The notes under the pieces were generated by a model. That model saw nothing but the letters and a program-made list of their open reading frames with translations, ran no database searches and had not been told where the DNA came from. A DNA stretch of 39,592 nucleotides from positions 1 through 39,592 of IMG/VR virus record IMGVR_UViG_3300046454_000439; one strand, given 5' to 3'. Positions 2,249 through 39,592 of the stretch are shown here, piece after piece; position 1 is the first letter of the stretch, and the number at the start of each line of letters is the position of its first letter. Source of the DNA: a virus. The position numbers and the translations under genes are program-made.

Positions 2249-3034
2249 TTAGATCGGCAGTGGCGCGGTTTCGTCGGCCTGCATCTTCAATAAGCCGCTC
2301 TGCCGCCCGATGCGCCGCCGCAAGTCCTCCATCGCCTCCGTCGCGGCAGCCTCGCCGCTGGCCTCGACGATCAGCTTGTGGCACTCGACCCAGCTGGGCG
2401 ACTTCGGCAGGTTCTCCAACTCGGGCAGCGTCATCAGTTGCGGGATCGCGGCGGCGATCTCCTTCCACCGCTCCCGCGCGCTCTCATCGGCGCTGGCCTG
2501 GCCGTTCGGGGCGCTTGGGGCCACCGTTCGGGCTTCCGGCGCTGTACGGCCGCGAGACGCCGCCGCTGGGATATTCTGGACCGGGCGGCCGACCGCCGCC
2601 TCGCCGTCGTCATCGTCATCGTCCGGAGCCACCCCTGCCATCGCGGCCAGCGCGTACCGGCGCAGGTAGGTCACGACCGAGCCGACGCCCTGTGCGTCGA
2701 ACTTGGTCGGCTGGACGTAAATCGTGCTCTCGATCCACTGGCCGGACGAATGGCCGAGCAGGGTTACGACGCCGATGTTCTGGCCGATGTTGACCGGCAT
2801 CTGGACGGGCGCGATACCATTCGCCGTCAGCGCCGCCCAGCACGCCTCCTTGACCGAGGCTAGATCGGCGTACCGGCTGCGGAAATGCGGGTTCTGCGCG
2901 TCCTTGATCGCGTTCTTGATCTCGGCCTGCGCCTTCGCCAGTGCCGCGAATATCTCGTTCGCCGGGGCGCTCCATCGGTGCGACAGCCCGGAAGGACTAA
3001 CCTCGCCGGTCGTGCGGTCGTAGTCGTCGCTCAT
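2249..3034 (-). CDS. erf: ERF-family single-strand annealing protein
   Basis: 261 residues. The first 150 match the ERF superfamily of phage single-strand annealing proteins: ALAKAQAEIKNAIKDAQNPH, FRSRYADLASV, IAPVQMP, VVTLLGHSSGQW and SVVTYLRRYALAAMAGVA followed by DDDDDD. After a Pro/Ala-rich linker (about 150-190) comes a small helical C-terminal domain. The family anneals complementary strands during phage recombination and repair. The frame is open further upstream (to 3304), but ATG at 3034 has a strong GGGGAGAGAAG site and shares ATGA with the upstream gene's stop, so I chose it. Together with the exonuclease at 4963-5901 it forms a two-component recombination system. Confidence 0.92.
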   Translation of the reverse strand: MSDDYDRTTGEVSPSGLSHRWSAPANEIFAALAKAQAEIKNAIKDAQNPHFRSRYADLASVKEACWAALTANGIAPVQMPVNIGQNIGVVTLLGHSSGQWIESTIYVQPTKFDAQGVGSVVTYLRRYALAAMAGVAPDDDDDDGEAAVGRPVQNIPAAASRGRTAPEARTVAPSAPNGQASADESARERWKEIAAAIPQLMTLPELENLPKSPSWVECHKLIVEASGEAAATEAMEDLRRRIGRQSGLLKMQADETAPLPI

Positions 3035-3429
3035 GTCTTCTCTCCCCAGGTTAAACCGTCGATAGCGTCCCCGTATTCGGGCCAGTCCACGCCCAACTCC
3101 CGCGCCACCATCGCCTCGATCAGCGTCGCGAAAGCGTGCTCCTTGCGGTAGGGCGCGTCGGGATGCTCGCCCGGCTCGCCCTCGTCGCCACTCGCTTCGT
3201 GCTCCTTGTCGAAGGCGGTCACAGCCTCCTCGCTGATGCCGCGGTGATGGCACAGCGCGGCCTCGACCATCTCGTGAATCGCGATCAGGAACTCGAAGCG
3301 CCAATCGCCGAGTTCGGAGACGCGCACAATGATCCGACCGTCATGGTCGATCAGCCAGTCGCCACATGTATCGTACCGTTGATCGGCGTGGCGGATCACA
3401 TCGACGCGGACGAGCGGGGTGGTTGTCAT
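3031..3429 (-). CDS. Hypothetical phage protein with HEMVEA motif
   Basis: 132 residues from ATG 3429. It contains FLIAIHEMVEAALCHHRGI, which recalls small phage proteins with an HExxE-like helix, and an acidic middle (EASGDEGEPGEHPD). No catalytic function can be claimed. An earlier in-frame start at 3441 exists. I prefer 3429 because it shares ATGA with the stop of the small gene at 3426-3602 and because the first eight codons are an exact copy of that gene's first eight codons. It couples by ATGA to the ERF gene. Confidence 0.75.
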   Translation of the reverse strand: MTTTPLVRVDVIRHADQRYDTCGDWLIDHDGRIIVRVSELGDWRFEFLIAIHEMVEAALCHHRGISEEAVTAFDKEHEASGDEGEPGEHPDAPYRKEHAFATLIEAMVARELGVDWPEYGDAIDGLTWGEKT

Positions 3430-3602
3430 GGGAGTAACCATTCAAAAAACAATATCAATAGGGCTATTGGGCCAAAAACCAGATATCGCAGTATCGTCTT
3501 AAGGTAAAAAAGTCCCACAACGGCTATAGCGCTTGCTGATATGCTGGCTAGCAGAACAGCCAAATAACACCAATAGGCGCGGACGAGCGGGGTGGTTGTC
3601 AT
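3406..3602 (-). repeat. 24-bp direct repeat covering two gene starts
   Basis: Bases 3406-3429 and 3579-3602 are identical over 24 bp. On the minus strand each copy encodes the same first eight residues, M-T-T-T-P-L-V-R, of two consecutive genes that are unrelated after that point. Confidence 0.95.
3426..3602 (-). CDS. Small two-helix membrane protein (58 aa)
   Basis: 58 residues, short enough to be missed by many gene callers. After M-T-T-T-P-L-V-R come two hydrophobic helices: about residues 10-34 (WCYLAVLLASISASAIAVVG and following) and 39-57 (RYLVFGPIALLILFFEWLL), separated by L-K-T. A GGGGGT stretch on the minus strand, 10-15 bases before the ATG, could serve as ribosome-binding site. 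Its TGA overlaps the ATG at 3429. The base composition is clearly more AT-rich than its neighbours, as is the next 650 bp upstream. Function unknown: holin-like, a superinfection-exclusion peptide or an inner-membrane toxin are all possible. Confidence 0.65.
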   Translation of the reverse strand: MTTTPLVRAYWCYLAVLLASISASAIAVVGLFYLKTILRYLVFGPIALLILFFEWLLP

Positions 3603-3608
3603 CTACTT

Positions 3609-3983
3609 CTACCCCCGCCTGGTCGCGATGGCGAAGTGCAGCTTGTGGCGCAGGGTATCGCGCTCCATTTCCAACTCCCGCAGCATTCCCTCGTAGTGCT
3701 GGGACTTTGCGGCGAGGGATGCGAGGGCGGCGTCGCGCTCTTTTCCGCAGCTTATATTTTCATCGGCCAGAATTATAAGACGTTCCCGCGCCAACTTGTA
3801 TTCGGCAGCTTGCGATTTATAGAGGCCCTCAAAGTCGTCGCGCTCCTGGGTGAGGCGGGCGATTTGTTTGACAAGGAAACAATAATCACAGCCTCGATCT
3901 TCGCTGTTGCCTGAATGTCTAATGCGAATTGAAGCCAATCGCGCTGCGGCCAGCCGCTCGGCGTCCTTCATAGGATTGACCAT
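3609..3983 (-). CDS. Hypothetical coiled-coil protein
   Basis: 124 residues, mostly charged helix with heptad character (QIARLTQERDDFEGLYKSQ, MLRELEMERDTLRHKLHF), so probably a coiled coil. An N-terminal DRGCDYCFL pair of cysteines is present. Start ATG 3983 overlaps the TAA of the previous gene (TAATG), favoured over an upstream start at 4007. The first 28 bp resemble the first 28 bp of the gene at 3983-4231. Confidence 0.65.
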   Translation of the reverse strand: MVNPMKDAERLAAARLASIRIRHSGNSEDRGCDYCFLVKQIARLTQERDDFEGLYKSQAAEYKLARERLIILADENISCGKERDAALASLAAKSQHYEGMLRELEMERDTLRHKLHFAIATRRG

Positions 3984-4231
3984 TATTCGGTGGCTCCCAT
4001 AGCCCATCTGGAGTCTGATTTCTTGTCACTTTTCCCAGAGATTAAGTCACGATTATACCAATAAGCGGCTAGTGCTTCTTCACGAGCTTTAAACGGGCCG
4101 CCGGGTGCGTTAAAGGGATACCATAAGTTGTCCATCCCTTTATAAATTTTTGTATTAGCTAACAAGCCACGCCCATATTCTATATCGTCGCGGACATTGT
4201 TTGACTCGGCGTCCTTCGTAGGTTCGCTCAT
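3983..4231 (-). CDS. Small hypothetical protein
   Basis: 82 residues, not recognised. It begins M-S-E-P-T-K-D-A-E, close to the M-V-N-P-M-K-D-A-E of the next gene. The body has KGMDNLWYPFNAPGGPFKAR and REEALAAYWYNRDL. The low GC matches the 3430-4340 island. Its ATG shares ATGA with the stop of the frame at 4228-4335. Confidence 0.6.
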   Translation of the reverse strand: MSEPTKDAESNNVRDDIEYGRGLLANTKIYKGMDNLWYPFNAPGGPFKAREEALAAYWYNRDLISGKSDKKSDSRWAMGATE

Positions 4232-4335
4232 TGCAATTCCTCTGCTTTAGCTAACCGACGCGCTTCCATTCGTTTCCAGGCAAGATAATCGCGTTCGTCT
4301 AATTTATCTTTTGCTTGTAATGTGCGCAGCTCGCA
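4228..4335 (-). pseudogene. In-frame extension past the amber codon
   Basis: 35 codons continue in the same frame as the 4336-4485 gene. They encode a basic, coiled-coil-like tail (ELRTLQAKDKLDERDYLAW, KRMEARRLAKAEELQ) with no good start codon of its own, and end in TGA overlapping ATG 4231. Helix plus charged tail is the architecture expected of a single 85-residue gene. The bases around the amber form CGCAC-TTA-GTGCG, a short inverted repeat with the stop codon spanning loop and stem. Confidence 0.5.
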
Positions 4336-4758: not shown

Positions 4759-4973
4759 CACGACACCTTCCGCGCCGGCAGCCGCCGCAGGTTCCTACTG
4801 ACGTAGCTCCCCGGCGACGTGGCGACCAGCAAATCCTGGTACGCGCTCTCCCCGGCGTCGGGGTATGCGTAGACCGAGCCAGAAGCGAACTCGACCAGCA
4901 GCTCGTTCGTCTCGTCATTCCAGCCGACCCGGCTCACGTTGCTGCTCGACACGTCTTTCCACTCAACAGTCAT
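4758..4973 (-). CDS. KTSC-domain protein
   Basis: 71 residues. The pattern SSSNVSRVGWNDETNELLVE, F-A-S-G-S-V-Y-A-Y-P, Y-Q-D-L-L-V-A-T-S-P-G-S-Y is the KTSC domain, a small fold found alone in phages and next to nucleic-acid enzymes; its function is unknown. ATG 4973 has a GGAGAAG site and overlaps the exonuclease's end by 11 bp. A start at 5009 would extend further into the exonuclease gene and is less likely. Confidence 0.85.
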   Translation of the reverse strand: MTVEWKDVSSSNVSRVGWNDETNELLVEFASGSVYAYPDAGESAYQDLLVATSPGSYVSRNLRRLPARKVS

Positions 4974-5901
4974 CGGTCTTCTCCATTGCGATCGTGACGC
5001 CCCGGCCATCGCGCTTGAAGCGCACCAGCCCCACGGCGCAGAGTCCCACGTCGTCCGGCACCAGCTCGGTCATCGCCTTGCGGGTGATTGCGTGCAGGTC
5101 GGAGGCGCCCTTGGTCTCGGCGAATTGGCGAGCGAGGCGCATAAACTCGCCGCTCCAGTTCGGCCGCTCGTCCATTGGGGTCTGGTCCAGCAGTATCTGC
5201 CGCAGCCTCGGCCGCGGTTTCGGTGCCTCGGCGCGCGGGTTCTGGTCCGCCGGCTCCTCGTCTCTTTCCAGATACCCGTAGAACTCGCGCTCAGCGGCGA
5301 TCAGGCGGGCTCGGAACAGCGGGTCCACAGGCTGCTCGACCAATTCCCACTTCTTGCCGGCGAAGATCGAGAGGCCCCACCAGTCCACCCCCATGACGAC
5401 CGCCTGGTGCGTCCCGGCCGGCGTGTAAAGCTGGATCATGTCGTCGCTGGCCCGCGCGATGTCCTTGGCGTCAAGCACCATCGGCTCGCCCTGCGCGGTG
5501 GTCGTCATCGCGTCCAGGTGTGCGCCCATGAATGGGTAATCCTTGCTGACCTGTAATTCGTCCTTACAGGGGTAGGTCACCGCCTGAAGGCCCTTCCATA
5601 CCGCCCGCAGCATCGGATTCCCGCTGTAGTAGGTCACGGGCCGGCCGGTGCGCTCCTGGCAGTAGGCCAGGTTCAGCGGCTCGGTGTACTGCCCCATCAG
5701 CCGGCGCAGGTCCATCTGCTCACGCGAGACGTTGCGCTTGATGTACCACTGGAGCCCGTCGTAGAAGTCGGCCTCCTGCTCCAGCCCCTTCTTGATGCGC
5801 CACAGCAGATTCCAGCGGCCATCGAGGATCAGCTGTGCATCCCCGGCGCACAGATACTTGCGGCGCGCTTCCAGTTGGTCAGCGGTCAATCCCAGGTCCA
5901 T
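4963..5901 (-). CDS. PD-(D/E)XK exonuclease (YqaJ/lambda-exo type)
   Basis: 312 residues. The nuclease core reads E83-R-T-G, then MGAHLDAM (D130) and MVLDAK (D144, K146), then a helix with QLYTPAGTHQAVVMGVD. This is the D...(D/E)xK order of phage recombination exonucleases that resect double-stranded ends for an annealing partner. The C-terminal third is an added domain with a Pro/Glu-rich linker near 215-235. GGGAGAGGGCG precedes the ATG. The partner is the ERF protein eight genes downstream in the same operon. Confidence 0.85.
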   Translation of the reverse strand: MDLGLTADQLEARRKYLCAGDAQLILDGRWNLLWRIKKGLEQEADFYDGLQWYIKRNVSREQMDLRRLMGQYTEPLNLAYCQERTGRPVTYYSGNPMLRAVWKGLQAVTYPCKDELQVSKDYPFMGAHLDAMTTTAQGEPMVLDAKDIARASDDMIQLYTPAGTHQAVVMGVDWWGLSIFAGKKWELVEQPVDPLFRARLIAAEREFYGYLERDEEPADQNPRAEAPKPRPRLRQILLDQTPMDERPNWSGEFMRLARQFAETKGASDLHAITRKAMTELVPDDVGLCAVGLVRFKRDGRGVTIAMEKTDDC

Positions 5902-7641: not shown

Positions 7642-8511
7642 ATGGCGTTAGCGCAACAGGACATCGGCCGGCTTCGGGCCGCCACCGAGCAGGACATTTT
7701 CAGCCCGATCGACCCCTCTATATGGGCGGGCAAGCTGCCACCGCGGCGGGATTGGATGGTCGAGAGTTGTTTTATCCGCGGCTCTGTCGGCATGGTCAAC
7801 GGCGATGGGGGCGTCGGAAAGTCGCTCCTGATGCAGCAGCTTTTAACCTGTGCCGTCATGGGCCGTGGGTTTCTGGGCCTCTCCTGCCAGCCGGGGCGGG
7901 GCCTTTTTCTTTCTTGCGAAGACGACAGCGACGAGCTGTGGCGGCGGCAGCACGACATCAATCGCGCGATGGGTCTCGAGATGGAAGACACAGCCGAGTC
8001 GGGGCTGTGGATCGACCCCAGGGTGGGGCGTGACAACGTGCTCTCCCGGCTATGCCAGGACCGTAAAAGCCCGCACTACTGGACCATGCAGCCGACGCAC
8101 CTGTTCACCCGGCTGATAGAGTTCTGCATAACCCATGGCATCAGCTACGTCGTCGTAGACACAGCGACACAGACCTTTGCCGGCAACCAGAATGACGAGC
8201 AGCAGGTGGTTCAGTTCATCAACCAGCTGCGCCGGCTCGCGGTGGCGATCCAGGGGCTGGTGCTGATAACGAAGCATCCCAGCATGGCCGGGCGGGCGCT
8301 GGGGACCGGCGAATCGGGCAGCGTGTCGTGGAACAACAGCGTGCGCAGCCGCATCTACATGCACAAGGACAAGGCGCGCGGGCTGATGATCGAATCGAAG
8401 AAGTCGAATTACGGCCCGGCCGATTTACAGCTTCCGATACGGTGGGAGCGCGGCGCCTACATGCTCAACCAGCCCGAGGTCGCGCAGCCCCGAGGCTACC
8501 GAGACGATTGA
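7642..8511 (+). CDS. RepA-like RecA-fold ATPase (AAA_25 type)
   Basis: 289 residues. Walker A GDGGVGKS (54-61), CEDDSDELWRRQHDIN after the second strand, Walker B YVVVDTATQTF (D173), and LVLITKHPSMAGRA with the sensor region. This is the RepA/RadA-like family of phage and plasmid hexameric helicases and loaders. It is probably the phage's replication helicase, since no DnaB-type helicase or polymerase is visible. GGGGGAGG precedes ATG 7642. Its end overlaps the convergent gene at 8496 by 16 bp. Confidence 0.85.
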   Translation: MALAQQDIGRLRAATEQDIFSPIDPSIWAGKLPPRRDWMVESCFIRGSVGMVNGDGGVGKSLLMQQLLTCAVMGRGFLGLSCQPGRGLFLSCEDDSDELWRRQHDINRAMGLEMEDTAESGLWIDPRVGRDNVLSRLCQDRKSPHYWTMQPTHLFTRLIEFCITHGISYVVVDTATQTFAGNQNDEQQVVQFINQLRRLAVAIQGLVLITKHPSMAGRALGTGESGSVSWNNSVRSRIYMHKDKARGLMIESKKSNYGPADLQLPIRWERGAYMLNQPEVAQPRGYRDD

Positions 8512-8771
8512 TCCTCGTAGGCCGAGTTGAGGCGGATCGCCGTAGCTACCGCGGCAAATGCTGAGTGGGTGGGAAGCGGTATCTGTTGCCCGTCGCTGGC
8601 GACCAGCACGAAGGCCGGGATCGGCATGCCGTTGGGCTTCGTCGGGAAATCGACGCGATAGGGTCCGGGCGGCAGCGGCGCCAGGTCCAGCGCGGCCTCG
8701 ATCGTGCGCCGGTCAAGCCGTTGCGCGCGACGCACCGCCCGCCGCCGCCGCCACCATCGCGCGATGCTCAT
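8496..8771 (-). CDS. Duplicated hypothetical protein A, copy 1
   Basis: 91 residues. A basic N-terminus (M-S-I-A-R-W-W-R-R-R-R) leads into DRRTIEAALDLAPLPPGPYR and PTKPNGMPIPAFVLVASDGQ. The first 80 or so residues are nearly identical to the gene at 9813-10148; the C-termini differ. Last gene of the second leftward operon. ATG 8771 shares ATGA with the previous stop. Confidence 0.7.
   Translation of the reverse strand: MSIARWWRRRRAVRRAQRLDRRTIEAALDLAPLPPGPYRVDFPTKPNGMPIPAFVLVASDGQQIPLPTHSAFAAVATAIRLNSAYEDQSSR
8538..8771 (-). repeat. Tandem duplication, flank A copy 1 (partner 9915-10148)
   Basis: By eye about nine in ten bases match between 8538-8771 and 9915-10148. Identity is longest in the middle and ends abruptly on the 3' side of the genes. 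Confidence 0.9.
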
Positions 8772-9040
8772 CGTTCCGCCGCGAGCGCGGCCGCGAGCGA
8801 GGAGAATTTCTCGACGGCTTGCCTGCCAATGAGAACCAGCGCCGCAGCATTGCGGGGCAGTTTCGAGAGCTGTCCTGCAATACGATCGGAATGCCACTGC
8901 TTAACCTCAACGTATAGGTCCATCGCCGGCAGGTAAAAATCCAGATTCGTTGGGTCGGACTGGGTTTGCTCCGGGCGCGTATATTCTACCCCGGCGCCCT
9001 CCATCAGGATGATAAATTGCTTTTCAAGGGGGCACGTCAT
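8768..9040 (-). CDS. Small PD-(D/E)XK-type nuclease
   Basis: 90 residues. LEKQFIILMEGAGVEYTRPE, then NLDFYLPAMDLYVEVKQWHS, shows the D...ExK catalytic spacing of small restriction-like endonucleases such as Vsr-like and phage nucleases. GGAGG precedes ATG 9040. It is the variable cargo in position 2 of duplication copy 1; copy 2 has a different 57-residue gene there. Possible roles are host DNA breakdown or gene mobility. Confidence 0.65.
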   Translation of the reverse strand: MTCPLEKQFIILMEGAGVEYTRPEQTQSDPTNLDFYLPAMDLYVEVKQWHSDRIAGQLSKLPRNAAALVLIGRQAVEKFSSLAAALAAER

Positions 9041-9062
9041 AGGTGCGTCCTCCAAACCCAGG

Positions 9063-9263
9063 TCAGGGCGGCCAGCGTCGCCACCCAGGCGGCACCCAGA
9101 GGCGGCCAGGTCGGCGCGGTCGGTGAGGGAGGGCCAGTATCCCAACAAGCAAGCCGCCCGCTATCGTGTGGAGGGCAGCCGCTGAGAGGCGGTCAGGCAC
9201 GGCGAGGGCGGCAATGCTGCCGCCCAACACCAGCGCCGCGAGAATGCCCTGCGCCTTGCTCAT
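9063..9263 (-). CDS. Membrane protein starting with the nuclease signal sequence; possible frameshift
   Basis: 66 residues as read. The first 23 residues are nearly the same as the signal sequence of the SNase at 10315-10800 (70-bp match, four differences), then the sequence diverges into a second hydrophobic helix (ALHTIAGGLLVGILAL) and an Arg/Pro-rich end. One other frame from about 9118 to 9037 would encode a third hydrophobic stretch (GAAWVATLAALTWVW) and stop exactly on the next gene's ATG (ATGA). A -1 shift would join them into a three-helix holin-like protein. Confidence 0.5.
   Translation of the reverse strand: MSKAQGILAALVLGGSIAALAVPDRLSAAALHTIAGGLLVGILALPHRPRRPGRLWVPPGWRRWPP
9194..9263 (-). 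repeat. 70-bp repeat of a signal-peptide coding start (partner 10731-10800)
   Basis: 66 of 70 bases match between the two copies. It covers the start codon and signal sequence of two otherwise different genes. Confidence 0.92.
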
Positions 9264-9553
9264 CCGGTCGTCACCCTATCTTCGGCCTCCAGCCGATCTG
9301 CAAGCGCCTCCAGTTCTGCAGCTGCCTTTGGATACGCTCTCGGGCGCATGCCGCGGGCAGCTAAATCTCGGAGCGTTGCCGCTTGGCGGCGCAATACCTC
9401 CCATTTGGCAGGCTGGGCCACCGGCTTAAGAACTACGCCAGAAAACAGCTTTCCCGCCTCTCGCTTCATGGCCGCGGCGCGCGCTCGCTTACTCATTCGG
9501 CCTGACGGGCTCAAAAGCGAATGGTCGATAGACGGCCAGGTGCAAGCTCTCAC
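9260..9553 (-). CDS. Small basic hypothetical protein
   Basis: 97 residues from GTG 9553, which forms GTGA with the upstream stop and follows GGAGAGAGAGG. An internal ATG at 9496 would give 78 residues, but it lacks a ribosome-binding site. Basic and helical (KRARAAAMKREAGK, WEVLRRQAATLRDLAARGMR). It occupies position 4 of duplication copy 1. The equivalent gene in copy 2 (10797-10976) is unrelated although the upstream ribosome-binding site is the same. Confidence 0.6.
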   Translation of the reverse strand: MRACTWPSIDHSLLSPSGRMSKRARAAAMKREAGKLFSGVVLKPVAQPAKWEVLRRQAATLRDLAARGMRPRAYPKAAAELEALADRLEAEDRVTTG

Positions 9554-9813
9554 AACAACGCCTCTCTCTCCAATTTGCCACACTCGCTCGCGGCCGCGCC
9601 CATCAGCCGGCGGATATCCTCGTCGGCTACCGTGAAGTCGTCTGCCGCCTCCTCGCACTCCGCGGCCAGCGTCAGCGCGCCGGCCTGGCGGAAGCGTGTC
9701 GCGGCCAGCATCAGCAATTCCGGCTGCTGCGTGGCACCTGCCTCCGACGCCCGGTAAAGCAGGGAGGCCCCGGCGGCGCATTGCCGCCAGCGTCCCTCGA
9801 CCTCGCGCGGCAT
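9550..9813 (-). CDS. Duplicated hypothetical protein C, copy 1
   Basis: 87 residues, all helix: RWRQCAAGASLLYRASE, LLMLAATRFRQAGALTLA, DDFTVADEDIRRLM. About nine in ten residues match the gene at 10973-11236. ATG 9813 overlaps the TGA of protein A copy 2 (TGATG). Function unknown. Confidence 0.7.
   Translation of the reverse strand: MPREVEGRWRQCAAGASLLYRASEAGATQQPELLMLAATRFRQAGALTLAAECEEAADDFTVADEDIRRLMGAAASECGKLEREALL
9553..9813 (-). repeat. Tandem duplication, flank C copy 1 (partner 10976-11236)
   Basis: The two stretches match at about nine in ten bases and include the ribosome-binding site for the next gene. Similarity stops at that gene's start codon. Confidence 0.9.
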
Positions 9814-10148
9814 CAGCAGAAATCCTTGTGTGCGCTGTCCCAAACCTGCATTGGGACATAATCAGGAAACGGCAGCCCGGGCTCGACGTAGCGGATTGCC
9901 GGGTCGGGGCCGAATTCCGTAGCGACCGCGGCGAAGGCCGAGTGGGTGGGTAGCGGTATCTGTTGCCCGTCGCTGGCGACCAGCACGAAGGCCGGGATCG
10001 GCATGCCGTTGGGCTTCGTCGGGAAATCGACGCGGTAGGGGCCCGGCGGCAGCGGCGCCAGGTCAAGCGCGGCCTCGATCGTGCGACGGTCCAGCCGCTG
10101 CGCGTGCCTCACCGCTCGACGGCGGCGCCACCAGCGTGCGATGCTCAT
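9813..10148 (-). CDS. Duplicated hypothetical protein A, copy 2
   Basis: 111 residues. Same M-S-I-A-R-W-W start and DGQQIPLPTHSAFAAVAT as copy 1, but with a longer C-terminus (DPAIRYVEPGLPFPDYVPMQ). ATG 10148 shares ATGA with the upstream gene. This copy may be the more complete version. Confidence 0.7.
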   Translation of the reverse strand: MSIARWWRRRRAVRHAQRLDRRTIEAALDLAPLPPGPYRVDFPTKPNGMPIPAFVLVASDGQQIPLPTHSAFAAVATEFGPDPAIRYVEPGLPFPDYVPMQVWDSAHKDFC

Positions 10149-10318
10149 CCCCATATCCAGAGATTCCAGCCACCCGCGCTGTCGTGTGTTATCTCGACGT
10201 AGGGAGCGGCCAGCGCCGCGAGCTTTTCGATATCTGCCGCAAAGGCGTCGCCCTCGGCTTTGGTGCCGTAGTGGCCCTGAAGGTACGCCACGCGGGGGTC
10301 TGGGTCGTAGTCCATCAT
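10145..10318 (-). CDS. Small hypothetical protein
   Basis: 57 residues beginning M-M-D-Y-D-P-D-P-R-V-A-Y-L-Q-G-H-Y-G. The rest is a helix and a Trp-rich end (GGWNLWIWG). ATG 10318 shares ATGA with the SNase stop. Position 2 cargo of duplication copy 2. Confidence 0.6.
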   Translation of the reverse strand: MMDYDPDPRVAYLQGHYGTKAEGDAFAADIEKLAALAAPYVEITHDSAGGWNLWIWG

Positions 10319-10800
10319 CGGCGCGCCCTCCTCCAATCTGCCGGCATCGTGAAGCTGGTCGCCCACATGCCCAGGCGTTCCTGCTGCGCTGCGGCCTCCT
10401 CGTCGCGGTAGAAGCCGTGGCTGTAGTGGCGGTAGTCTACAGCCAGCCCCAGAGCCACCATGCGCCGGCCAAGATCGCCGTCCACAGTATGGCACAGAGC
10501 CACAATGCGGCCGTACCTATCGCGATCTCGCGGGTTGCAGGTAACAGCATCATGGGCCGTCATCCTTCGTATCGCGGCAGTCGCGGCCTCACCGCACGCG
10601 AAGCTGCCGCAGGTCTGGTCGTGCTCGGGGGCGTCCATGCCCCATAGCCTGATGCGGCGGCCGGCCAGCTCGAGAGTGTCGCCGTCGATGGTGCGGGCGT
10701 AGCCGGTCAGCTCGCCTGCCGACATGACCTCAGGCACGGCGAGGGCGGCAATGCTGCCGCCCAACACCAGCGCCGCGAGGAGGCCTTGCGCTTTGCTCAT
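10315..10800 (-). CDS. Secreted thermonuclease-like nuclease (SNase family)
   Basis: 161 residues. A signal sequence (residues 1-23, GLLAALVLGGSIAALAV) precedes an SNase domain: TIDGDTLEL (D39, D41), IRLWGMDAPE (R51, D56, E59) and DRYGRIVA (R98), matching the metal ligands and the two catalytic arginines and glutamate of staphylococcal nuclease. Four cysteines could pair in the periplasm. It likely degrades nucleic acid in the periplasm, perhaps incoming DNA from competing phages or host DNA after lysis (inference). ATGA overlap at both ends. Confidence 0.88.
   Translation of the reverse strand: MSKAQGLLAALVLGGSIAALAVPEVMSAGELTGYARTIDGDTLELAGRRIRLWGMDAPEHDQTCGSFACGEAATAAIRRMTAHDAVTCNPRDRDRYGRIVALCHTVDGDLGRRMVALGLAVDYRHYSHGFYRDEEAAAQQERLGMWATSFTMPADWRRARR
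10731..10800 (-). repeat. 70-bp repeat of a signal-peptide coding start (partner 9194-9263)
   Basis: Second copy of the 70-bp match; here it belongs to the intact SNase gene. Confidence 0.92.
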
Positions 10801-10976
10801 GCGCTTGGCTGTCTATGTGGGGTTACCTTGACAGCCCCCCATTTACCCAGCGGGTTGCGCGTGTTCGCCGCTGCCGCCGCGTTTCTCGCGGCCTCCTCGG
10901 TGTCGTATTGCTTGCGGTCCAAAACCTCGAAGGATTGCGAGAAAATCTGCCAGCGTGGCTTCCCAGGATCGCTCAT
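10797..10976 (-). CDS. Small hypothetical protein
   Basis: 59 residues: W-Q-I-F-S-Q-S-F-E-V-L-D-R, then Y-D-T-E-E-A-A-R-N-A-A-A-A-A-N. It resembles small phage proteins that place a beta strand before an Ala-rich helix, but is not identified. ATG 10976 shares ATGA with protein C copy 2 and is preceded by GGAGAGAGAGG. Confidence 0.6.
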   Translation of the reverse strand: MSDPGKPRWQIFSQSFEVLDRKQYDTEEAARNAAAAANTRNPLGKWGAVKVTPHRQPSA

Positions 10977-11236
10977 GACAACGCCTCTCTCTCCAATTTG
11001 CCGCACTCGCCTGCGGCCGCGTCCATCAGCCGGCGGATATCCTCGTCGGCCACGGTGAAGTCGTCTGCCGCATCCTCGCACTCCGCAGCCAGCGTCAGCG
11101 CGCCTGCCTGGCGGAAGCGGATCGCGGCCAGCATCAGCAATTCCGGCTGCTGCGTGGCGCTGGCCTCCGCTGCCCGGTAGAGCAGGGAGGCCCCAGCGGC
11201 GCATTGCTTCCAGCGACCCTCGGCCATGCTCGGCAT
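10973..11236 (-). CDS. Duplicated hypothetical protein C, copy 2
   Basis: 87 residues, the same length as copy 1 (9550-9813) with about ten changes. ATG 11236 overlaps the TGA of the previous gene (TGATG). Function unknown. Confidence 0.7.
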   Translation of the reverse strand: MPSMAEGRWKQCAAGASLLYRAAEASATQQPELLMLAAIRFRQAGALTLAAECEDAADDFTVADEDIRRLMDAAAGECGKLEREALS

Positions 11237-11481
11237 CAGGCCGAACCCACCAAAGAGTTCGGCACATAGACGTAGCGGTAGATCGGATCGTGGCTGTTGC
11301 CCGTCAATTCGATCAGCAACTGCACGTCATCGACAGCCCACGCCACGCCCATCGGATCATCGACTAGGCGCAGTTTAGTGCCGGCCGGTATCGTGATCGT
11401 GGTTCGCAGCATCGGGCTTTGTGCCTCAAAAACCGTCGTTTGCCAGTCTTTGCATAGGACCGCTTCGGCGATGGTGGTCAT
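11236..11481 (-). CDS. Small hypothetical protein
   Basis: 81 residues: M-T-T-I-A-E-A-V-L-C then beta-rich (LRTTITIPAGTKLRLVDD, YRYVYVP). The Y-R-Y-V-Y-V-P end recalls the I-R-Y-V-E-P of protein A copy 2. It is headed by the repeated leader (11470-11499). Confidence 0.6.
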   Translation of the reverse strand: MTTIAEAVLCKDWQTTVFEAQSPMLRTTITIPAGTKLRLVDDPMGVAWAVDDVQLLIELTGNSHDPIYRYVYVPNSLVGSA

Positions 11482-15350: not shown

Positions 15351-15459
15351 CGCCTTCAAGCCCCACGAGCTGGCGCTGAAGCCGGACCTGCGCCGGCTGC
15401 CGCCGCGGCCCGTGATGGACGGCTACCGCTCCTCGGCGCTGCTGGCGATGGAGCGGTGA
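15256..15459 (+). CDS. Small hypothetical protein with CxxC
   Basis: 67 residues from GTG 15256, directly after a very strong ribosome-binding site (GGGGGAGGCGAGG). It starts with S-D-A-Q-C-Q-E-C-D-R-R and continues KPHELALKPDLRRLPPRPVM. Its frame is the better coding one after about 15256. It overlaps the previous gene by 95 bp and the next by one base. Confidence 0.6.
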   Translation: MNRSDAQCQECDRREYWMVPWPRLSPIPLARDAFKPHELALKPDLRRLPPRPVMDGYRSSALLAMER

Positions 15460-16295
15460 TGCGCATCATTCGGGTATTCCCGCGCAAGACCAGAGCCACA
15501 CCCGATGACGCCCTTGTTTATTGCGGCCCGCCGGATTTGCTGGCCTACGCGGACGAGGTTCACGTCTCTGTTACGTTCACTTGGGACAAGCCGCGCGCCG
15601 AGCGACTTGCGGAGGAATGGCGATGGGTCGCGCCGGTCAAGATCGGCGGGGTTGCCTACGGCGATTCCAGTCTGGAGTTCATCCCCGGTCGTTACATCAA
15701 GCCGGGGTACACGATAACCTCGCGCGGCTGCCCCGAGCGGTGCTGGTTTTGCAGCGTTTGGAAGAAGTGGCCGACCGTCAATCTGCTGCCGATCCATGAT
15801 GGCTGGAACGTCCTCGACGACAACCTGCTGGCCTGTCCGCGCGAGCATGTCGAAGCTGTGTTCGAGATGCTGCGACGCCAAAAGAGACGATGCGAGTTCA
15901 GCGGGGGCATCCAGCCGGCAAGGCTGGAGGATTGGCATGTCGATCTGTTTGCCAGCCTAAAGCCGCGGCCGAATATTTTCTTCGCGTATGACGATCCGGG
16001 CGGGACGAACGATACCCTTGAAAGCCTGGAGAGCGCCGCCAGCCGGTTGATTGCCGCCGGTTTCACCGCCGCATCTCACCGGCTGCGGTCTTTCGTTCTG
16101 ATCGGGTTCCCGAAAGATACGCGGGAGGCTGCGGAGGAACGGTTGACCTCACTGGTCCGCGTCGGCATTACGCCGTTCGCGATGCGCTGGCGGCCGGAGA
16201 ATGCGGCCGGAGAGCGCCGGGCACCGGGGCCGGAGTGGCAAGCCTTTCAGCGCAGCTGGTCGAGGCCCGCAATGATCCACGCAAGGGCGGCGTAA
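15459..16295 (+). CDS. Radical-SAM family protein
   Basis: 278 residues from ATG 15459 (TGATG). ITSRGCPERCWFCSV (C91, C95, C98) is the CxxxCxxC iron-sulfur motif of radical SAM enzymes, preceded by the usual strand and S-R-G. Downstream parts (FSGGIQPARLEDW, FAYDDPGGTN, FVLIGFPKDTREAAEER) follow the alternating barrel pattern. These enzymes use S-adenosylmethionine to start radical chemistry; phage members act in nucleotide or DNA modification and in other pathways. Substrate unknown here. It stands between the lipoprotein and TerL, and so is expressed late. Confidence 0.85.
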   Translation: MRIIRVFPRKTRATPDDALVYCGPPDLLAYADEVHVSVTFTWDKPRAERLAEEWRWVAPVKIGGVAYGDSSLEFIPGRYIKPGYTITSRGCPERCWFCSVWKKWPTVNLLPIHDGWNVLDDNLLACPREHVEAVFEMLRRQKRRCEFSGGIQPARLEDWHVDLFASLKPRPNIFFAYDDPGGTNDTLESLESAASRLIAAGFTAASHRLRSFVLIGFPKDTREAAEERLTSLVRVGITPFAMRWRPENAAGERRAPGPEWQAFQRSWSRPAMIHARAA

Positions 16296-16299
16296 TCTG

Positions 16300-19375: not shown

Positions 19376-21595
19376 GTGAGTGACGCGCCGCCTGACGACA
19401 CGGTAGACACGCAAGAGGAGAGACGCGAGCCCGTAGACCGGGACCGCGACCTCCTATCGCGCCGCCCGCCCGGCGGCATGGACCCCAAATCCGGCATCCG
19501 GTCTTACCTCTCCAAACTGTTCAAAGACATCAACAAGGGGTTCGAGGATCAGGCCGACAGGGCCGACGATATCCTCGACTTCTGGGACTGCTACAACTGC
19601 GTCCCCAACCAGCATCGCTACTACAACGGCATCGCCGACATCTATTTCCCGCTGATCCACGACGCCATCGAGGCGCGGGTGACGCGCTTCGCCAACCAGC
19701 TGTTCCCGCAAGGCGGCCGCTACGTCGAGGCGACCGATTCGGACGGCAAGGGCCGGGACGCCCTGGTGGGGTTGTCGGACCACTATGTTCGGCAAGGCAA
19801 GATGAAGACGCAGGTGGTGATGCCGCTCCTGCGCAACGGCGACATCGAGGGGCAGTACAACCTCTACGTCGATTGGGCCGAGGTCGAGCGCCAGCTTGTT
19901 TCACGTGAAACACACGGCCCCCGCGATCCCGAGAGCGGCATGGAGATGCCGGGCGAGGAGATCGACGACATCACCGAGGAGGACGTGATCGACGGCTTCC
20001 CGGTGTTCGAGGTCTTGCACGATGCCGACGTGCTGATCTTGCCGGCGACCGCCGACTCCACCGATGAGGCGCTGATGGCCGGCGGCTCGGTGACGATCTT
20101 CCGACGCTGGTCCAAGGACAAGATCAAGGCGATGGCTCGGGCCGGCAACATCCGGCAGGACGAAGCCGATATCCTGAGCGAGGAGATGAGCCGGGCCGAG
20201 GACGGCAAGGTGCGGGACACCGAGGGTCACGTGCTGCGCCAGGTCGGCATTCGCAAGGGCGGCAAGGAGGCTGGGGTCTGGGAGACCTGGCACATGCTGC
20301 CGCTGAACGAGAACGGCCAATTTGCCGAGAAGGGCAAGCGCCGCCTCTGCCGCATCTTCTTCGGGCCGCAGAACGCCCAGCTCGGCGCCAAGCGCAATCC
20401 TTACTGGAACGACCGCTGCCCGATGCACTCCTGGCCGGTGCAGAAGATGTCGGGGGTCTTCAAGGGGCCGAGCCTCATTCGCTACGTCGCCTCGATGCAG
20501 TACGAGGCGAACGACGCGGTGAACGAGGGCGCTGACGCCGCCACCCTCTCGGCGATGCCGGTCGTGGTGGCCGACGCCGAGAAAGTCACGGGGCCGCTGG
20601 TCTACAATCTGGGCGCTATCTGGAATGCGCCCACGGACGCCATCAGCCTCTTGACCATCCCGGACCTGACGCCGCGGGCGCAAACCAGGGTGGGGATGGC
20701 GGCGGCGCAGATATTCCAGACGCTCGGGGTCAACCCCTCGATGCTGCCGCAGCAGACCCGCACCACGAAGCCCAACCAGGCGATGGTGGCGCAGGAGCAG
20801 GCGGTGGATCTCCTGACCACGGCCAACGCGGTCTCGATCGTCGAGGAAGGCATCCTGACCCCGGCGATCGAGTGGATGATCGACCTCGACTACCAGTTCC
20901 GCGACCGCGAGATCACGGTGCGGGCCTACGGCGAGGAAGGCCAGCGCGCCAAGATGGAGGCGGTGCCGCCGTTGCAAAACCGCAAGGGCATCAGCTTTGT
21001 CTGGCGCGGCGGTGAGCAGGTTCGGCAGAACGCGATGTTCGCGCAGCAGGGCGCGCAGATGCTCAACGTGATGATGAACCCGAGTTTGCAGCAGGTGCTG
21101 GCGGCCGCTGGCAAGAAGTTCGACCCGACCACGATCATCGAGCGCATGGTCTCGACCGCCTTTGGCCCCGAGGTCGCGCAGCGCACCATCATCGACCAGC
21201 GAGAGCAGCTGACCAACCCGCCGGAGATGGAAGACGAATGGATGCTGTCGGGGCTGGAGGCGCACGTCCACCCGCTCGACGACGACAACCGCCATATCCA
21301 GGCGCACTCGCGCTCGATCATGGAGACGGGCGACCCGACCGGCTTGATCGGGGCGCACCGGGCGCAGCACATGGCGCAGGCCGCGGCCAAGCAGCAGGCG
21401 ATGATGATGCAGCAGATGCGCCAGCAAATGCAGGGCGCGGGGGGCGGGCCGGGGGGCGGACCTCCGGGCGGTCAGCGCCCGACGCCGCCGGGGGCGATGC
21501 CGATGGGCGGGCGACCCGTCAAGGCGCCGCCGGGGCAAATCCACAGGGATCAGATGCCGCGAGCCGGCATCATCGCCATGCCGAGGAAAATGTGA
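19376..21595 (+). CDS. Portal protein (podovirus type)
   Basis: 739 residues from GTG 19376, preceded by TAAGG. The length and organisation fit podovirus portal proteins: DILDFWDCYNCVPNQHRYYN, then DIYFPLIHDAIEARVTRFAN, a central EYxx clip region, QYEANDAVNEGADAATLSAM, and a Gly/Pro/Gln/Met-rich tail (QQAMMMQQMRQQMQ). Twelve copies would form the ring at the packaging vertex. It follows TerL and a small gene, the usual order. Confidence 0.85.
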   Translation: MSDAPPDDTVDTQEERREPVDRDRDLLSRRPPGGMDPKSGIRSYLSKLFKDINKGFEDQADRADDILDFWDCYNCVPNQHRYYNGIADIYFPLIHDAIEARVTRFANQLFPQGGRYVEATDSDGKGRDALVGLSDHYVRQGKMKTQVVMPLLRNGDIEGQYNLYVDWAEVERQLVSRETHGPRDPESGMEMPGEEIDDITEEDVIDGFPVFEVLHDADVLILPATADSTDEALMAGGSVTIFRRWSKDKIKAMARAGNIRQDEADILSEEMSRAEDGKVRDTEGHVLRQVGIRKGGKEAGVWETWHMLPLNENGQFAEKGKRRLCRIFFGPQNAQLGAKRNPYWNDRCPMHSWPVQKMSGVFKGPSLIRYVASMQYEANDAVNEGADAATLSAMPVVVADAEKVTGPLVYNLGAIWNAPTDAISLLTIPDLTPRAQTRVGMAAAQIFQTLGVNPSMLPQQTRTTKPNQAMVAQEQAVDLLTTANAVSIVEEGILTPAIEWMIDLDYQFRDREITVRAYGEEGQRAKMEAVPPLQNRKGISFVWRGGEQVRQNAMFAQQGAQMLNVMMNPSLQQVLAAAGKKFDPTTIIERMVSTAFGPEVAQRTIIDQREQLTNPPEMEDEWMLSGLEAHVHPLDDDNRHIQAHSRSIMETGDPTGLIGAHRAQHMAQAAAKQQAMMMQQMRQQMQGAGGGPGGGPPGGQRPTPPGAMPMGGRPVKAPPGQIHRDQMPRAGIIAMPRKM

Positions 21596-39323: not shown

Positions 39324-39592
39324 CCTGCGGCTGGGAACCTCTCGGCACGCTGCTGCTCGAACCCAACCTTCCCGACCTGATTCGCGCCTACTGGGCCGAG
39401 CTGTCGCCGCACAAGGGCAAGCTGATCCCGCTGCCGGATTGGGAGCGCATGGCCGAGATGGAGGCGGCGGGGGCCTTCAAGGTCTGGGCCTGCCGGGTCG
39501 ATGGCACGGTGGCCGGCTTCATCGCCTGGCAGTTCTCGACCCATCTCGCCTACAAATCGACGCTGCTCGCGATCGACTGCGGCCACTACCTG
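39317..39592 (+). CDS. GNAT-like acetyltransferase, 3' end cut by the window edge
   Basis: 92 codons open from GTG 39317 to the edge. WERMAEMEAAGAFKVWACRV, then DGTVAGFIAWQFSTHLAYKS and TLLAIDCGHYL, resembles the N-terminal strands of phage GNAT acetyltransferases. The acetyl-CoA loop is beyond the edge, so the call is tentative. It overlaps the previous gene by 7 bp. Confidence 0.6.
   Translation, partial: MVACGWEPLGTLLLEPNLPDLIRAYWAELSPHKGKLIPLPDWERMAEMEAAGAFKVWACRVDGTVAGFIAWQFSTHLAYKSTLLAIDCGHYL

Follow-up and report, generated by a model that had tools for sequence, protein, structure and literature searches.

How does a phage come to carry the same genes twice in tandem, with different genes between them in each copy? 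The question is raised by one early region of the window, the whole 39,592-base virus record, from an uncultured phage, analyzed here. All cassette genes lie on the minus strand, in the coding order C2 - X2 - SNase - Y2 - A2 - C1 - Z1 - W1 - nuclease-like gene - A1, and are followed by a convergent RepA-like AAA gene. A and C are referred to as frame genes and the genes between them as cargo. The features used below are:

11236–11481, minus strand: gene before C2, 57% amino acid identity to its L016 homolog
10973–11236, minus strand: C2, frame gene of the first-transcribed unit, 90% nucleotide identity to C1
10797–10976, minus strand: X2, 59-aa cargo gene (ORF), in ATGA overlap with C2
10315–10800, minus strand: SNase with signal peptide, 161 aa, Pfam SNase E 2.9e-13
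10145–10318, minus strand: Y2, 57-aa cargo gene (ORF)
9813–10148, minus strand: A2, frame gene, 111 aa, with 77 codons in common with A1 and then a foreign 34-residue tail
9817–9897, minus strand: proposed novel joint of the tandem, the foreign A2 tail running into C1
9550–9813, minus strand: C1, frame gene of the second unit, 92% nucleotide identity to C of L006
9260–9553, minus strand: Z1, cargo gene with a GTG start at 9553 or an ATG at 9496 (ORF within 9260–10066)
9063–9263, minus strand: W1, probable membrane protein of 66 aa, with its first 24 codons a copy of the SNase start
8768–9040, minus strand: PD-(D/E)XK-like cargo protein, 90 aa, a weak assignment with a D...EVK motif
8496–8771, minus strand: A1, frame gene with a native 3' end overlapping the end of RepA
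7642–8511, plus strand: RepA-like AAA gene, convergent, the slot boundary and the anchor for relatives (AAA_25 E 3.8e-25)
4963–5901, minus strand: RecE-like exonuclease, PHROG E 1.2e-11
2249–3034, minus strand: Erf-like single-strand annealing protein, PHROG E 2.7e-39

A machine search for direct repeats recovered C at 9549–9816 and 10972–11239 (268 nt, 90%), A at 8521–8772 and 9898–10149 (252 nt, 89%), and the signal-peptide start common to SNase and W1 at 9193–9266 and 10730–10803 (74 nt, 5 differences, 93%), all of them collinear. This confirms the order and coordinates of the tandem duplication of A, signal start, and C around unrelated genes that was described in the initial annotation, whose count of 66 matches in 70 bases for the signal start is consistent with our 5 differences in 74. 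One gene was missed in each copy: X2 (10797–10976), which lies between SNase and C2, and Z1 (9260–9553), which lies between W1 and C1. Between the repeats, the DNA of copy 1 has no significant match in copy 2, and the sole protein similarity among the cargos lies in the first 31 residues of SNase and W1. Chance similarity was rejected because matches of 250–268 nt at ∼90% are far beyond it. A transposon or composite element was also rejected: inverted repeats frame neither unit, and there is no transposase among the cassette genes. A search for sigma-70-like promoters and for terminators between the units, which does not cover hosts using other promoters, gave none above chance.

An assembly chimera of two co-occurring phage variants would also place two versions of a locus side by side, and one contig, 3300046718_000298, does stop at window position 11248, just beyond the start of C2. 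Against this, both cassettes lie within that same contig, every frame is open across the joint, and 3300046817_000787 covers the whole region at 100% identity, although the contigs may have a common study or assembler. These two contigs agree with the window at 99.9%–100% and carry the same tandem structure at 100% identity. Because the arrangement recurs in two other metagenome contigs, the tandem is not an assembly error, and we regard a chimera as highly improbable. Both contigs also include ∼7.0 kb absent from the window, located between its positions 39592 and 1; this puts the full genome near 46.6 kb. This missing segment encodes a 1231-residue protein (window ends 1/39592; L052) resembling a podovirus-type internal virion protein.

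C proteins have 84–87 residues and belong to no known family; neither Pfam nor PHROG has a match for A, W1, or Y2, those for C, X2, and Z1 are all below threshold, and the predicted fold of A (pLDDT 61) has no viral structure match at E ≤ 0.001. Purifying selection acts on both copies of A (dS 0.39, dN 0.012 between A1 and A2; p 2e-9) and of C (dS 0.27, dN 0.07 between C1 and C2; p 6e-4), and A, signal start, and C have diverged to a like extent between the copies (p 0.78 and 0.38). The pooled synonymous difference is 0.25 from copy to copy and 0.21 between the window and the sister strain L013 (p 0.34), a yardstick that lacks coverage of the cassette region. With copy divergence so close to strain divergence, the copies look like alleles of two strains or like a duplication of the same age. 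The homology of A1 and A2 ends after codon 77 and gives way to unrelated tails of 14 (A1) and 34 (A2) residues, so that the earlier statement that the repeats stop at gene starts is right for where they begin but not for A, whose homology ends inside the gene.

Relatives were found in IMG/VR via RepA, C, and A, and few are known. A search of 50,697 isolate-phage records matched neither the DNA of the region nor the A and C proteins, and pattern scans of bacterial genomes with C and with RepA gave no confirmed relatives. In L022, whose RepA is 67% identical, the slot reads C - membrane protein - A - RepA; in L026, C - D - RepA; in L027, C - D - beta-helix protein (opposite strand) - RepA; and in L016 and L015, C - gene - SNase - membrane protein - four genes - A. 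L045 has SNase - A plus a 23-bp remnant of C. The beta-helix protein of L027 (6917–8167), which has 416 residues and RTX-like glycine-rich repeats, replaces the end of gene D. Judged by these single-copy forms with differing cargo, the stretch from C to the replication gene RepA is variable; it is a hypervariable slot in which early genes are exchanged, bordered by the convergent AAA gene. The one-copy versions that the initial annotation proposed to seek in related phages therefore exist, with other cargo, and together with L006, which keeps C and W, they bear out its idea of conserved frame genes with exchangeable cargo. In whole-record searches of the relatives, C and A are doubled only in the virus of the window, where copy 1 occupies the position of the single copy: A1 overlaps the end of RepA as A of L022 does, and A2 does not. 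No relative yielded X2, Y2, Z1, or the nuclease-like gene, so that both parental alleles are seen only in part.

We think it probable that two alleles of this hypervariable slot were stacked in tandem by unequal recombination. In one cell, a phage carrying C-X-SNase-Y-A and a relative carrying C-Z-W-nuclease-A would have undergone an unequal crossover, fusing codon 77 of A in the former to the 3' end of whatever gene preceded C in the latter. Such a product would retain all start codons, and one event would suffice. The tandem's one new joint is the 81 bp from the end of the A homology to C1. These 81 bp have no match to the A1 tail and no convincing match beyond 10 bp to the C2 flank, and no homology is evident at the A2/C1 joint itself. 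Their translation is weakly like the end of the gene at 11236–11481, before C2 (10/25 residues, E 0.075); the L016 homolog of that gene is placed after C, not before. The predicted second donor, with a gene before C ending in the A2 tail (EFGPDPAIRYVEPGLPFPDYVPMQVWDSAHKDFC), was not found among the relatives. We infer the identities of the donors, and also that the 81-bp joint is donor flank.

A cousin phage, L016, has just such a stack: two alleles meet at a single joint, and the donor is readable. Its 290 bp of SNase (3740–3451, 92.8% to L045) are followed by ∼30 bp of new sequence and then by 74 bp (3419–3346) that are 94.6% identical to the L045 SNase start with its flank, and the membrane protein begins with that second start. 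A truncated first gene and the second allele's flank and start are what unequal crossover between alleles gives, and A2 - tail - C1 in the window has the same form. The L016 slot contains broken genes, with C (3977–4244) read in two frames and SNase truncated; downstream are 54 bp left over from the 3' end of SNase (2768–2821). Cargo exchange between conserved genes is also real. In L006, a different phage, C is 92% and W 97.6% identical to the window in nucleotides, the latter over the whole gene (dS 0.07), and the gene between them is unrelated to the window's; the C of L006 combines C1-like with C2-like sites as a mosaic.

That exchange bears on the history favored in the initial annotation, in which a single C-cargo-A unit doubled in situ and recombination in the conserved genes later replaced the cargo in one of the copies. 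Collinear and equally diverged copies, the swap of cargo between C and W in L006, and the mosaic C of L006 all speak for it, and an older duplication in situ fits the strain-level divergence too. It nevertheless requires a duplication plus gene replacement on both sides of the signal start, and it predicts matching DNA before C1 and C2, where we find no match. The upstream DNA of C1 and C2 being unlike, the copies being divergent at the strain level, the ancestral 3' end being present in A1 only, and L016 showing that stacking yields the same anatomy, we do not retain the claim of a single cassette in which only the cargo was exchanged, and consider duplication in place rather unlikely. A separate origin of the two copies, which the initial annotation had set against its own reading, may apply in part. 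A single slot holding all of the cargo could instead have been duplicated and then have lost complementary genes from each copy. The order of SNase before membrane protein inside one slot of L016 is what such an ancestor might look like, but L016 is itself a stack, the full cargo set occurs in no relative, and several deletions would be required that left the starts intact each time; we find this improbable. Stacking of two alleles by unequal crossover makes checkable predictions, as single-copy and stacked versions of the slot, the L016 joint included, can be compared base by base.

Each cassette repeat opens at a start codon, usually at a stop-start overlap. For C the overlap is TGATG, and three different genes precede it, two in the window and another in L006. 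The overlap is ATGA for A, W1, and SNase and GTGA for the W of L006. The 5' edges of the repeats lie 0–18 bp upstream of start codons and the 3' edges inside genes. Further repeated starts occur in the early region at 3400–3429/3573–3602 and 11458–11499/11910–11951. With gene starts and repeat families listed by hand, five of the six direct-repeat families in the early region begin 0–18 bp upstream of a start (chance per edge 0.047; five reached in 0/200,000 simulations), a statistic that counts against random edges and not against selection, which also preserves starts. It is conceivable, if doubtful, that stop-start overlaps (ATGA, GTGA, TGATG) and the codons following them serve as standard joints for swapping small genes and stacking alleles; if so, a lineage would accumulate accessory genes instead of replacing them. 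Selection for intact starts after random joining would give nearly the same picture.

Gene starts drew our attention elsewhere as well. The two additional repeated-start pairs are unrelated neighboring genes with a common start, up to 30 identical bases including the ATG, and one of these genes (3426–3602) is again a small hydrophobic protein. A radical-SAM gene (window 15456–16299) is absent in L013 (1490–1498), with an exact joint at TGATG; the gene carries the 8-bp repeat TGATGCGC at either end, and homology at this joint is 5–8 bp. The portal gene (window 19376–19396) and an unrelated 133-residue L013 gene (4569–4590) have their first 21 bases identical, as would result if a deletion had carried one gene's start over to its neighbor.

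PHROG matches identify an Erf-like annealing protein and a RecE-like exonuclease in this phage, a pair that is a candidate for having made the joint. Since no more than a few bases of homology are seen at the joints, illegitimate joining with selection as the filter is just as possible.

As to the cargo, SNase keeps the catalytic Arg-Glu-Arg positions when aligned with staphylococcal nuclease. The PD-(D/E)XK nuclease named in the initial annotation does have the D...EVK motif, but its match to a PHROG profile, Holliday junction resolvase, is weak (E 0.028), and its fold model is of low confidence (pLDDT 57) and all helical. Judged from their sequences, the slot's genes (SNase with signal peptide, a small membrane protein, a nuclease-like protein, and the relatives' beta-helix protein) look like optional host-interaction genes. 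A slot that gathers such probable host-interaction genes, among them a predicted exported nuclease, small membrane proteins, and a beta-helix protein, is a place to seek takeover or anti-competitor functions.

The tandem is phage mosaicism made unusually legible; the process is ordinary, and the clarity of the case is not. It illustrates one way in which viruses come to accumulate optional genes, and it addresses the old questions of how accessory genes are gained without loss of resident genes and why mosaic joints sit at gene boundaries. In T4-type phages, mobile regulatory cassettes shuffle small early genes in hypervariable regions. The shuffling of early genes is alike here, but no promoter or stem-loop element is seen between the units of the window. 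Cluster K mycobacteriophages have start-associated sequences, short repeats at gene starts that were suggested as possible recombination sites (PMC3203893). Short repeats likewise lie at gene starts in the window, but each of these is a particular gene start present in duplicate, and the start-associated element itself was rejected: its 13-bp consensus upstream of starts, GGGATAGGAGCCC, has 0 matches with up to 2 mismatches.

Mosaicism through Rad52-like recombinases (Redbeta, Erf, RecT; PMC3945230) is likewise gene exchange between related phages, and Erf of phage D3 is efficient at recombining diverged DNA (PMC3945230); the phage of the window, too, encodes an Erf-like protein together with an exonuclease. 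In contrast to those cases, two alleles stand in tandem in one genome, and homology at the joints amounts to a few bases at most. The model of illegitimate recombination plus selection in mycobacteriophages (cited in PMC3203893, PMC11242194) has joints at gene boundaries with little homology, as found here. The joints of the present locus differ in being anchored at starts, often with chimeric 3' tails, and the tandem has been kept, with both copies under selection.
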